The notes below the pieces were generated by a model, which saw only the letters and a program-made list of their open reading frames with translations, had not been told where the DNA came from and ran no database searches. 64,000 nt of DNA, taken from NCBI GenBank assembly GCA_951812785.1, contig OX638335.1:1081501-1145500 (forward strand), given 5' to 3'. Shown piece by piece: positions 9,084 through 52,970 of the stretch (position 1 is the first letter of the stretch; the number at the start of each line of letters is the position of its first letter). The DNA is from an uncultured Gammaproteobacteria bacterium (GTDB lineage: Bacteria; Pseudomonadota; Gammaproteobacteria; UBA4575). A program made the position numbers and the translations under genes.

Positions 9084-9578
9084 ATGGCCAAACCAAAAAA
9101 AACCAGTGATCCACATGCGGACAGAGAAGCAAAAAAATATGCCCATCCGATTGCTAGCCGCGAATTCATACTAGAACTTATTGATAAAAATGAAGGCCCT
9201 GCTACCTTCACTAAATTAAAAAAATCCCTTGGCCTTTCTAGTGAAAGAGATATTGAATCATTGGAGCGCCGACTGCGCGCAATGGAACGTGATGGGCAAT
9301 TAGTACGTAATCGACAAGGCTCTTATCTACCCGTAGGCCGTGCTGACCTAGTGCGCGGACGTATTATTGGCCACCCCGATGGATTTGGATTTTTAAACCC
9401 TGATGAGCATGGTGAATCCGATATATTTTTATCACCTCGTGAAATGCGTGCAGCACTACACGGTGACCGTGCTGTTGTGCAAATCACTCATACAAAAAGA
9501 GATGGTCGTAAAGAAGGTCATTTAGATAAGCTGCTGAAGCCGCACTTCATAATCTGTGTACGTCTTTCTCAAATTTAA
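9084..9578 (+). pseudogene. rnr: RNase R, N-terminal fragment only
   Basis: Residues 1 to about 147 match RNase R (a 3'-5' exoribonuclease): DPHADREAKKYAHPIASREFIL opens the helix-turn-helix (RNase B-like OB) region, and GRIIGHPDGFGFLNPDE with HGDRAVVQI is the first cold-shock domain. At about residue 148 the likeness stops; the catalytic RNB domain and S1 domain, about 550 residues, are gone. The new tail (LKPHFIICVRLSQI) is out-of-family, and an overlapping frame with AAEAALHNLC ends at 9619. A deletion is the likely cause. Such a fragment cannot degrade RNA. No intact copy is in the window. Confidence 0.85.
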
Positions 9579-9868: not shown

Positions 9869-12244
9869 ATGGAATTTATCGTAGGACAACGTTGGATTAG
9901 TCATTCCGAGACACAATTGGGATTAGGCATCGTCACCGATGTTGCTAGCAGGCGCGTAAAATTCTTATACCCGGCTGTTAATGAAAGTCGTATCTATGCT
10001 ATAGATACTGCTCCTCTAAGCAGAATTCGCTACAACCTTGGCGACAGAGTATTTGATAGCGATGAACAATCAATTATCGTAGCAGAAATAAAAGAAGATA
10101 ATAATTTAATCACCTATTACGGCAAAACGATTAATGGTGAAGATAAAGAAATTCACGAACTAGATCTAAGCTGTTTTGTACAATTCACAACACCTCAACA
10201 ACGTTTATTCAGTGGACAATTAGATAAAAATAAGAATTTCTCATTACGTGTTGAAACGTTACAACATCTTCATCGTTTACAGCAGTCGCCCGTTAAAGGA
10301 TTATTGGGGTCTCGAACTGACTTATTAGCACACCAAGTCTTTATTGCTAGTTAATGTAGCTAATCGTCATGCGCCTCGCGTATTACTCGCAGATGAAGTA
10401 GGACTAGGAAAAACAATTGAAGCTGGCATGATTCTGCACCATCAATTGCATACTGGAAAAGCCTCACGTGTACTCATCTTAGTACCAGATAGCTTGATCC
10501 ATCAGTGGTTAGTTGAAATGTTGCGTCGATTCAATCTCAGCTTCTCCATATTTGATCAAGAACGAATTGACTCATTATTAGATGAAAAATATTCAAGTCC
10601 ATTTGAGTCAGAACAAAAAATACTTTGTCCGTTAAGCTTAGTCAGCCATGCAACTGAAACGCAGCAACATGTACTATCAGCCACCTGGGATATAGTTATA
10701 GTTGATGAAGCTCACCATTTAACTTGGAGCAAACAAAAAGTAAGCCCTGAATATCAATGCGTTGAACAGCTTGCTCAATAATGCGAAAGCTTGCTATTGC
10801 TAACAGCCACACCTGAACAAGCTGGCTTAGACAGTCACTTTGCACGCTTAAGATTATTAGACCCTGACAGATTTCATAATTTAGAAGCGTTTCAGAAAGA
10901 ACAGGCAGGACATGCTCAACTGAATTCATTAATTCAGCAACTGCTAGAAACCGAACACCTCAATACAGACCAGCAACAACAGCTTAAGCAATACCTTGGT
11001 GAGTCGTGCAGCGGTACAAGGTTTCCCAAGTAGAATAGCCAACCCCTACTCGTTAGATATTCCAGAAAATTTCACCTTAGAGAAAAAATCAATATATCCT
11101 GAGATTATCTTTGATGATGATTCATGGCTAGAGCAAGACCCACGTGTCACTTGGCTAGTAGACAAGTTAAAATCACTGAAACCACATAAAGTATTAGTCA
11201 TTTGCCATCATGCTGATACCGCTATACAACTAGATAATTATTTAAATCTAAGAATGGAAATCAGAAGTACATCATTCTATGAATGATTTAAGCATTATTG
11301 AACGAGATCAAGCTGCAGCTTACTTTGCTGAAGGATCGAACCCTGATGAGTTAGACAGTGGCGATGGTGCATTGGCAGCGAAGGAAGAAACTTTCAATTT
11401 TTTCACCACTTAGTGCTATTTGATCTACCTTTAAATCCTGATTTATTAGAACAACGCATTGGTCGACTAGATAGAATTGGGCAGAAACACAATATCGAAA
11501 TACATATTCCTTATATTAAAAACACTGCACAAGAAATATTGTTTAGATGGATACATGAAGGCATACAACTATTCACACAAAGTTGTTCTGCTGGATATGA
11601 AATCTACAATACCTTTTCTTCACAGTTAAATCAGCTAATTGAATCGGCAGAAAATATTGATTCTAATGCTCTCAACTCATTAATAGCAGACACCATTTCA
11701 TATACCTTTAAAACAATGCAGAGCCTGCATCAGGGCCGCGATAGATTGTTAGAATTAAATTCATGCAACAAATCTGAAGCACAAGCATTGATAGAAAAAA
11801 TCGAAAAAGAAGATCAACACGAATTACTTAATGAGTATATGGAACAAGTATTTGATCAGTATGGCGTTGACTTTGAATTCCACTCAGAGTACAGCTATAT
11901 ATTACGGCCGGGCGATCATATGCATGAAAATTTTCCAGGTCTGCACGAAGAAGGCAATACTATTACTTTTAGCAGAGAAAACTCGAGCGATCACCCAAGA
12001 AGTTTTATTAGTTTCACAACAACTCGCTGACAATAAGATTGCCGATATAAAGGACTCTGCCAAACAGAGCATGCTTAATGATTTATCTAGTGAACTTGAT
12101 CGACTTAGATCACTGCAGAAAGTTAATCCCAACATTCGCAACGAAGAAATAGAATATCTACAAGACCGCATTCAACTATCCGCTCAACAAATAGACCGTG
12201 CAAGATCTCAACTTCAAGGCATACGCTTAATCATTAATAATTAG
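9869..12244 (+). pseudogene. rapA: RNA polymerase-associated ATPase RapA, heavily degraded
   Basis: RapA is a SWI2/SNF2 ATPase that recycles stalled RNA polymerase. Its parts appear in order: N-terminal VGQRWISHSETQLGLG, the Walker A region [48 protein letters not shown] and the C-terminus NPNIRNEEIEYLQDR. They are split by an inserted T near 10333, a TAA at 10779-10781, a deletion near 11000 that removes part of the ATPase core, a shift and small deletion near 11370, and a large deletion near 11990 that drops most of the C-terminal region. The remnant is about 2.4 kb against about 2.9 kb for intact genes. These are true deletions, not base-call errors. Confidence 0.9.
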
Positions 12245-12621: not shown

Positions 12622-13206
12622 ATGTTTAAATCTAAAGCGTCATTATTGAGCATAATTGGCATACTAACAATTTGCACAACACCAATCTTTAGTGATCTAT
12701 CAGCTAGCGAAGAAAAAGAAGCAACAACGACAGCTTACACTAATGAATGTCAACTGCCAGAAGCATTTGAAAATACTGAAAGCATGGCAAATGCAGTTGC
12801 AGACCCTGCTAAATTTATGCAGCTAGTTACCTTAATGAGTAATCCGCAAGCAGCACAAAATTTGATGAACTGCTCTACAGATTCAGCACAATGGGATACA
12901 TGGATGAAAAACCTAAGTAATCCTACTTTCAAAATGAATGCAGCAGCGGTATTTATGAATCCATCATTATATATGAATTGGATGACTGCTATGTCTAACC
13001 CCGCCTACTATCAATCAATGAACAAAATGATGGACCCTAAATGGCAGCAACAAAGCAGCGCATGGATGATGAACCCTAACTCATATCAGCAAATGTTTAA
13101 TTCATTCATTCATGGGTGGACAAGTTGTAGCAGATGCATCAACTCAGTAAATCTTAGAAAGATTTTTGCAGGAAGCATAGAAATGTTTTTGACTCCCAGG
13201 ATCTAG
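12622..13206 (+). CDS. Exported protein of eight 13-residue [DN]P repeats, unknown function
   Basis: A 194-residue protein with a signal peptide (residues 1 to about 28) and a repeat domain at residues 61-163. [DN]P or its variant begins each unit at 61, 74, 87, 100, 113, 126, 138 and 151, a 13-residue period with one unit of 12. Aromatic residues favour position 5, and W-M or L-M pairs positions 8-9; Met is very frequent. Two Cys (43 and 84) could form a disulfide in the periplasm. The last 30 residues look out of frame: a one-base shift near 13112 gives MGGQVVADASTQ and a TAA at 13148. A strong terminator follows, so it is a single-gene unit. No family was recognised. Confidence 0.65.
   Translation: MFKSKASLLSIIGILTICTTPIFSDLSASEEKEATTTAYTNECQLPEAFENTESMANAVADPAKFMQLVTLMSNPQAAQNLMNCSTDSAQWDTWMKNLSNPTFKMNAAAVFMNPSLYMNWMTAMSNPAYYQSMNKMMDPKWQQQSSAWMMNPNSYQQMFNSFIHGWTSCSRCINSVNLRKIFAGSIEMFLTPRI
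12802..13110 (+). repeat. Coding tandem repeat, eight units of about 39 bases
   Basis: The DNA encoding the 13-residue units of the preceding gene. Units differ in base sequence and are similar mainly at protein level, so the array is old and not a recent expansion. The third unit has D-S in place of [DN]-P and the sixth is one codon short. Confidence 0.6.
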
Positions 13207-13232
13207 AGTAGTAGAAACATTTCCACCCCCAG

Positions 13233-13264
13233 AAAAGCCCTAATCGAAAGATTAGGGCTTTTTT
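13233..13264. terminator. Strong bidirectional terminator
   Basis: AAGCCCTAATC (13235-13245) pairs perfectly with GATTAGGGCTT (13250-13260) around a GAAA tetraloop, with T runs on both strands. It lies between the convergent repeat-protein gene (plus) and the carbonic anhydrase gene (minus) and can end both transcripts. Confidence 0.9.
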
Positions 13265-13303
13265 CTTTGTCGCATCAAGGGCTAAATTCCTCTCTTAGTA
13301 CAT

Positions 13304-51686: not shown

Positions 51687-52970
51687 ATGAAAAAGTTAAA
51701 TCGTAGAGATTTTATAAAATTAGGTGGCGGCTCTATTGTTGCAGGAACAGCCGGTGTGAGTATTCCAAACATCGCCATTGGCGCAACTAAAAAAGTAGTT
51801 GTCATTGGCGGGGGTGCAGGTGGCGCTGTTGCTGCAAAATATATAAGAAAAGCTGACAGCTCAATTGATGTCACCCTGATTGAAACTAATAAGGACTATC
51901 ACACTTGCTTCATGAGTAATGAAGTAATCGGTGGTAATCGCAAAATTGAGACTATTCGACATAGCTATGAAGGCATTAAAAAGCACGGCATCAATGTTGT
52001 TCATAGCAAAGCAACTAATGTTGATATTGATGACAAAATGGTCACCACTGAAAGTGGTGATTCATTTGCGTATGATCGATTAGTTGTATCACCCGGTATT
52101 TCATTCAAATGGGGCTCTGTTGAAGGCTACGATGAAGCCGCTTCAGAGATTATGCCTCACGCATGGAAAGCTGGTAGTCAAACTTCTCTACTACGCAAGC
52201 AGATTGAATCCATGAAAGATGGTGGCTTAGTCATCATTGCACCACCAGCTAACCCGTTCCGTTGCCCTCCTGGACCGTACGAACGTGTTTGCCAGATTGC
52301 ACATTACTTAAAGCACAATAAACCCAAGTCAAAAATCTTAGTTTTAGATGCTAAAGATAAATTCTCCAAGCAAGGCTTATTCACACAGGGTTGGAAAGCG
52401 CGTTATGACGGCATGATTGATTGGGTACCGGCTGCAGATACTGGCGGTGGTATCACTTCTGTTGATCCTAGCAACATGACAGTCAATACAGACTTTGATG
52501 AGTATAAAGCTGATGTCGTTAACTTAATTCCACCTCAGTCTGCCGGTACAATTGCAATCGCTGCAGGATTAACCGATGACTCAGGTTGGTGCCCAGTTGA
52601 TTTAGGCACATTTGAGTCTAAAATTCATGCGGGTGTTCATGTTATCGGTGATGCAAGTATTGCGACGGGTATGCCAAAGTCTGGTTACGCGGCTAACTCT
52701 CAAGCCAAAGTATGTGCCGCAGCAATTGTTGCTTCACTGAACGACCATGAGATGGCTGATCCTTCTTATGTGAACACATGTTACAGCTTAGTCGCACCTG
52801 ATTATGGTATTTCAGTCGCTGCTGTATATAGACTCGCTGAAGACCGTTCTAAAATTGCTAAAGTCGCAGGTGGCTTAACACCAGGCGATGCCAGCGCAGA
52901 TGCGTTACAACGTGAAGTGCAATATGCATACAGTTGGTATGACAATATTGTTGCAGATATGTTTGGCTAA
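51687..52970 (+). CDS. fccB: Flavocytochrome c sulfide dehydrogenase, flavoprotein subunit
   Basis: FccB oxidises sulfide to sulfur or polysulfide with FAD and passes electrons to FccA. A Tat signal ([10 protein letters not shown], residues 6-15) leads to the periplasm. The FAD-binding [15 protein letters not shown] follows at about 41-55. Likely redox Cys residues are Cys193 ([11 protein letters not shown]) and Cys365 ([14 protein letters not shown]), in the positions of the active disulfide of known Fcc[24 protein letters not shown] is the second FAD motif. Length 427 is normal; a terminator follows. Confidence 0.95.

Follow-up and report, generated by a model that had tools for sequence, protein, structure and literature searches.

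Sulfur globules in Allochromatium vinosum are coated by hydrophobic, repetitive, proline-spaced exported proteins (PMC10386293), among them SgpD, a globule-attached protein that is in part helical (PMC10386293). Two further described systems are built from helices outside the sulfur field. GerD is an alpha-helical trimer that forms a twisted superhelical rope and clusters receptors (PMC11841064), and the C-terminal/STI1 domain of Sgt2 consists of short amphipathic helices with Asp/Asn-Pro caps that form a helical hand with a Met-rich hydrophobic surface (PMC8010706).

We compared with these systems the product of a gene found once in the 2.16-Mb single-contig genome from which our window, a stretch of 64,000 nucleotides, is taken. 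The protein resembles SgpA-D of A. vinosum, in a comparison made by description only, in being probably Sec-exported, in being repetitive with regularly spaced prolines, and in occurring in Dsr sulfide oxidizers. The center of SgpD follows a P-X2-P pattern, whereas the window family is built from 13-residue [DN]P units, and identity with SgpD was set aside because of this different repeat pattern. The described Sgps are also more hydrophobic than members of the window family, and the window protein showed no similarity to known Sgps in any model searched, including NCBIfam. The GerD core (PF17898) resembles the family in being extracytoplasmic and helical; however, GerD is a Bacillus spore lipoprotein that clusters germinant receptors, while neither the window protein nor its family shows a good lipobox, and the family occurs in Gram-negative sulfur oxidizers. 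The STI1/HOP DP domain (PF17830) and the Sgt2 C-terminal domain share short helices, [DN]P caps, and a Met-rich surface with the window family, but they belong to eukaryotic cytosolic cochaperones, have about five helices, and are attached to TPRs. Of the architectures known, those of GerD and STI1/DP come closest, and what they have in common with the window family is architecture, not membership.

A Probably Exported Repeat Protein of an Unnamed Family

The features of the locus are collected in Table 1. By inspection, the window protein has a Sec-type N-terminus that is kept in aligned relatives, in agreement with the original prediction of an exported protein. That prediction had also described [DN]P dipeptides, once replaced by D-S, recurring with a 13-residue period; all eight positions were confirmed, with successive [DN]P spacings of 13, 26, 13, 13, 12, and 13 residues. 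This spacing exceeds chance: at least four exactly 13-spaced pairs occurred in 0 of 20,000 full shuffles of the window protein, and four such pairs arose in 2 of 20,000 shuffles that left each [DN]P dipeptide intact and changed only where the dipeptides stood. Relatives keep the period, since successive [DN]P dipeptides in 22 family proteins are spaced by 13 residues in 104 cases and by 12 in 32. Within the 13-residue units of these proteins, position 5 is Y, F, W, or M in about 80%, position 13 is M in 70%, and position 12 is also mainly Met. At positions 8 and 9, for which W-M or L-M pairs had been described, the main residues are Trp (40% of 13-residue family units) and Met (62%), respectively.

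Table 1. Features of the 13-residue repeat locus, in window coordinates.
Feature	Position	Strand	Details
ORF	12622..13206	+	ATG start, 194 aa; residues ~1-161 are the family part, last ~31 frame-disrupted
Probable Sec signal peptide, residues ~1-24	12622..12693	+	sequence inspection; hydrophobic N-terminus kept in relatives
Two-cysteine region	12748..12873	+	C43 codon 12748-12750, C84 codon 12871-12873
Eight [DN]P/DS units, residues 61, 74, 87 (D-S), 100, 113, 126, 138, 151	12802..13110	+	helices in ortholog model
Unit start codons	12802, 12841, 12880, 12919, 12958, 12997, 13033, 13072	+	
Two units (78 bp, 26 residues) missing relative to G002	~12979..12981	+	pairwise alignment
TTCA tandem	13101..13112	+	frame departs from intact relatives
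Other-frame stretch	13112..13150	+	GGQVVADASTQ-stop, the family C-terminus
3′ untranslated stem-loop	13180..13223	+	sequence and pairing conserved with G002
Intrinsic terminator	13231..13265	+	folds at -21.3 kcal/mol, z = -6.7

No family had been recognized from the sequence, and this was upheld when the window protein was scanned against Pfam and NCBIfam, in which no model scored over its cut-off; the relatives tested from the window's own, Dsr-bearing bacterial family (hereafter the home family) likewise matched no Pfam or NCBIfam model above cut-off. A search of 143 genomes gave relatives in 15, and a class-wide sample of 369 genomes gave them in 8. Of the 19 genomes in the home family, 12 have a relative; beyond it relatives are uncommon and scattered over genomes of other families, and a genome of another class (G472) yielded three matches with the 13-residue period, two of which were read as full proteins. 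Two subfamilies can be distinguished, one window-like and the other carrying an extra N-terminal EHKFEKAKxYYxEC segment. Alignments and spacing counts show in the window protein the signal sequence, the [DN]P every 12–13 residues, the Met-rich composition, and the FMNPxxYxxW core that define the family. Judged by these traits, the window protein is a member of an unnamed 13-residue [DN]P repeat family of sulfur oxidizers, of which no description was found in the literature on methionine-rich sulfur-globule proteins. In a 342-aa relative from another class (L069:8312-9340(+)), which passes the Pfam GerD cut-off, [DN]P dipeptides lie 12, 13, or 25 residues apart along most of the sequence.

Mature family proteins contain 10–19% Met and about 8–19% aromatic residues and are acidic, with net charges of -2 to -10. 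Across an alignment of 20 sequences that covers both subfamilies, C84 is invariant and C43 nearly so, and a C43-C84 disulfide is possible from this conservation; equivalents of both cysteines are absent from the G472 proteins.

An Altered 3′ End and Conserved Untranslated Elements

The last 30 or so residues of the ORF had been suspected to be out of frame, and alignment of the 3′ end with relatives confirms this, placing the family C-terminus in another frame past 13112. Relatives end in QVVAD or PVVAD (e.g., QVVADVKVN and APVVADATSAK), and because the family C-terminus is read in another frame here, the final ~31 residues that the ORF encodes are translated from 3′ untranslated sequence. The frame change is either a mutation or an assembly error. 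The closest ortholog, from genome G002, is 71% identical to the window protein and has two units that the window copy lacks, although the exact junction of the loss is ambiguous because the units are alike.

Two genes upstream are also disrupted. The rapA homolog immediately upstream (window 9869-12241) is split into several frames compared with its intact 937-aa G002 ortholog, and it directly follows a 164-aa ORF (window 9084-9578) that corresponds by eye to the N-terminal part alone of RNase R. The broken rapA and the RNase R-like fragment make local decay plausible, and together with the loss of two units and of the native 3′ end they would fit a window copy that is a decaying pseudogene, its repeat a relic and the function of the family exerted elsewhere. 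Against this, the eight remaining units are all in frame, the loss amounts to exactly two units, as repeat turnover would give, and an assembly error may contribute. Furthermore, over the 163 codons shared with G002 we obtained a dN of 0.18 and a dS of about 1.7, which is near saturation, giving a dN/dS of about 0.11 and indicating that strong purifying selection acted on the repeat region through most of its past. We consider a relic pseudogene unlikely. The 3′ end of the window copy is likely decaying, and the copy as a whole, without two units and the native C-terminus, may be a variant or the beginning of decay. The original prediction included neither the unit loss, nor the likely 3′ decay, nor the link to sulfur oxidation described below.

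The strong terminator claimed downstream of the gene is borne out by its folding z-score (Table 1), though a simple consensus scan for terminators did not pick it up. Between the family stop codon and this terminator sits a stem-loop that occupies the same position in G002, where stem bases have changed yet still pair, and that includes two conserved GGA-containing stretches. Among the loci compared, the motif occurs at this locus only, in the window genome and G002, and an Rfam search of the 3′ region returned nothing above the gathering score.

Association with Sulfur-Oxidation Genes

In six home-family genomes from two genera (loci L002, L045, L046, L051, L059, and L062), the gene lies ~0.7–2 kb from soxYZ and near yeeE/yedE; G011 makes a seventh, with a distance to soxYZ of about 10 kb. 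In genome G032 (locus L053), which belongs to another taxonomic order, the gene adjoins yeeE/yedE and soxYZ is about 6 kb away. G472 has one relative with the 13-residue period at a distance of about 6 kb from both yeeE/yedE and DsrE2, and another that is separated from aprB by about 5 kb. Several of the soxYZ loci are also near genes for a NapC/NirT-type cytochrome and flavocytochrome c (FccAB). Within the genus to which the window belongs, rapA and a carbonic anhydrase gene flank the gene, and neither sox nor fcc genes adjoin it; farther along the window, at about 51687-52970, is an FccB-domain gene preceded by two ORFs whose products resemble the cytochromes of NapC and FccA type at other loci.

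Other repeat proteins accompany the family. Neighbors at the soxYZ/yeeE loci include further Met/Asn/Pro-repeat proteins, some with 9-residue MNPxxY units. Exported Met/Asn/Pro-repeat proteins (MNPMMGMMGPMM) are encoded beside soxYZ/yeeE at L002:8846-9460(-), L045:3792-4538(+), L053:11595-12590(-), and L073:714-1490(+); several of these carry one CxxCH or similar motif, and they had no Pfam assignment where tested. In two other bacterial families, members of the 13-residue family have exported proteins with a 9-residue MNPxxYMxW repeat encoded nearby (L053:10078-10710(-), L053:10815-11501(+), and L056:1616-2221(+)). Also conserved at the sox/yeeE loci is a DUF302 protein that is extended at its N-terminus by a Met-rich part (L051:12513-13610(-) and relatives).

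A DsrA match is present in 18 of the 19 home-family genomes (17 above cut-off) and SoxY in 16 of 19. Within the class-wide sample, dsrA occurs in 7 of 8 genomes that bear the repeat family versus 118 of 369 overall (hypergeometric p 0.0018, shared ancestry ignored), and FccB in 6 of 8 versus 110 of 369 (p 0.010, shared ancestry again ignored). Outside the home family, 4 of 5 family-bearing genomes have dsrA (p 0.035, with the same disregard of shared ancestry), and G472 carries it as well. Most dsrA-bearing genomes are without the 13-residue repeat family, indicating that the family is not required for sulfur storage. Based on gene neighborhood and co-occurrence, the protein probably belongs to a periplasmic sulfur-oxidation system. 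Sulfur-oxidation genes are present in family-bearing genomes, and the organisms may form sulfur globules.

Predicted Structure and Related Architectures

A structure was predicted with AlphaFold for a 202-residue ortholog with 19 sequences. The model has a pTM of 0.57 and a mean pLDDT of 75, with pLDDT values of about 78–89 in most 10-residue blocks between residues 51 and 180, and it contains ~12 helices of about 7–12 residues, most of them interrupted for 1–2 residues at [DN]P. The original prediction of a stacked-helix or solenoid-like fold is supported in one respect, as the model shows short helices in succession, all beginning at [DN]P. A compact solenoid finds no support in the low pTM or in fold searches: Foldseek against the PDB returned nothing with E < 1 and VIA-align nothing with Z ≥ 2 for the ortholog model. 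The model is consistent with a helical-repeat architecture, whose overall arrangement may be a solenoid, a rope, or a flexible chain. The corresponding model of a G472 relative had a mean pLDDT of 56.7 and was too poor for use. Sequence searches of the PDB with G472 members gave weak matches to alphaRep and other de novo or consensus helical-repeat designs; these are artificial and alike in composition and periodicity alone, and the matches were put down to chance or composition.

The architectural likeness to the STI1/DP domain would suit a periplasmic holdase or chaperone that offers exposed hydrophobic polypeptide a flexible Met-rich groove like that of STI1/DP or Sgt2. Sub-threshold matches point in this direction: paralog L018, the best-scoring relative, matches STI1-HOP_DP at 21.5 bits (cut-off 29.1), one G472 member does so at 16.8 bits, and another G472 member has a weak ubiquilin-1-like match at 17.8 bits. 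However, every match falls under its curated cut-off and the window protein has no PF17830 match at all, so that membership of STI1/DP is not supported. Family members consist of at least eight units, compared with a five-helix hand, fold searches returned no STI1 structure, and the gene neighborhood suggests sulfur rather than protein targeting, leaving a chaperone role quite improbable.

A GerD-like superhelical rope could instead scaffold or cluster membrane sulfur-oxidation complexes (SoxYZ/YeeE) with no sulfur binding of its own. GerD is the best Pfam match of the window protein, albeit a non-significant one (13.4 bits against a cut-off of 29.5, E 0.077), and one distant G472 relative passes the cut-off (31.5 versus 29.5 bits). 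Membership is not supported, since the window protein scores below the cut-off and is not a spore-former lipoprotein, the same difference in setting that separates the family from GerD as a whole. The GerD match may stem from a likeness in the periodicity of the repeats and in composition. When a G472 member served as query in a sequence search, GerD entry 4o8w was reached at no better than E 0.21, and fold searches with the ortholog monomer model gave no GerD structure. Such a rope appears distinctly unlikely.

A Proposed Role in Binding or Coating Sulfur

The protein is probably exported, rich in Met and aromatic residues, repetitive, and helical in prediction, and it is found in the context of sulfur genes; taken together, these properties make sulfur binding or coating the most economical reading. 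We infer a periplasmic location for a Met-rich helical-repeat protein that may coat or bind hydrophobic elemental sulfur, and we tentatively propose it as a candidate sulfur-globule protein, a proposal whose chances we judge to be close to, though short of, even. Short amphipathic helices of ~13 residues, each capped by [DN]P, would form a chain with a Met/Trp/Tyr surface, which could bind hydrophobic elemental sulfur or polysulfide. Sulfur globules would thereby be coated, or sulfur kept dispersed, outside the cytoplasm, and the stored sulfur might later be taken up via the YeeE/DsrE/Dsr route. A Met-rich periplasmic protein that buffers copper(I) or absorbs oxidants, and whose gene would stand close to sulfur genes because of the metal and reactive-sulfur stress that sulfur oxidizers face, would agree with the high Met content and with proteins such as MrpX, Met-rich and periplasmic, that reportedly have protective roles, but is highly improbable because a Met sink needs no conserved Trp, Tyr, or [DN]P and no strict 13-residue spacing, and inspection of the listed neighbors recognized no copper or methionine-sulfoxide reductase genes.

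A wider reading would be a new structural class: an extracytoplasmic chain of 13-residue helices, interrupted at each [DN]P, whose Met/aromatic face would solubilize or coat sulfur, common to distant Dsr-type lineages and expanded with related Met/Asn/Pro-repeat proteins. We regard this wider proposal as doubtful. Little is understood of how sulfur oxidizers store water-insoluble elemental sulfur outside the cytoplasm and still keep it within reach, and to our knowledge few sulfur coat proteins have been described beyond A. vinosum. The unnamed family, which is conserved and occurs in company with SoxYZ, YeeE/YedE, and Dsr, offers a directly testable candidate for such a coat.
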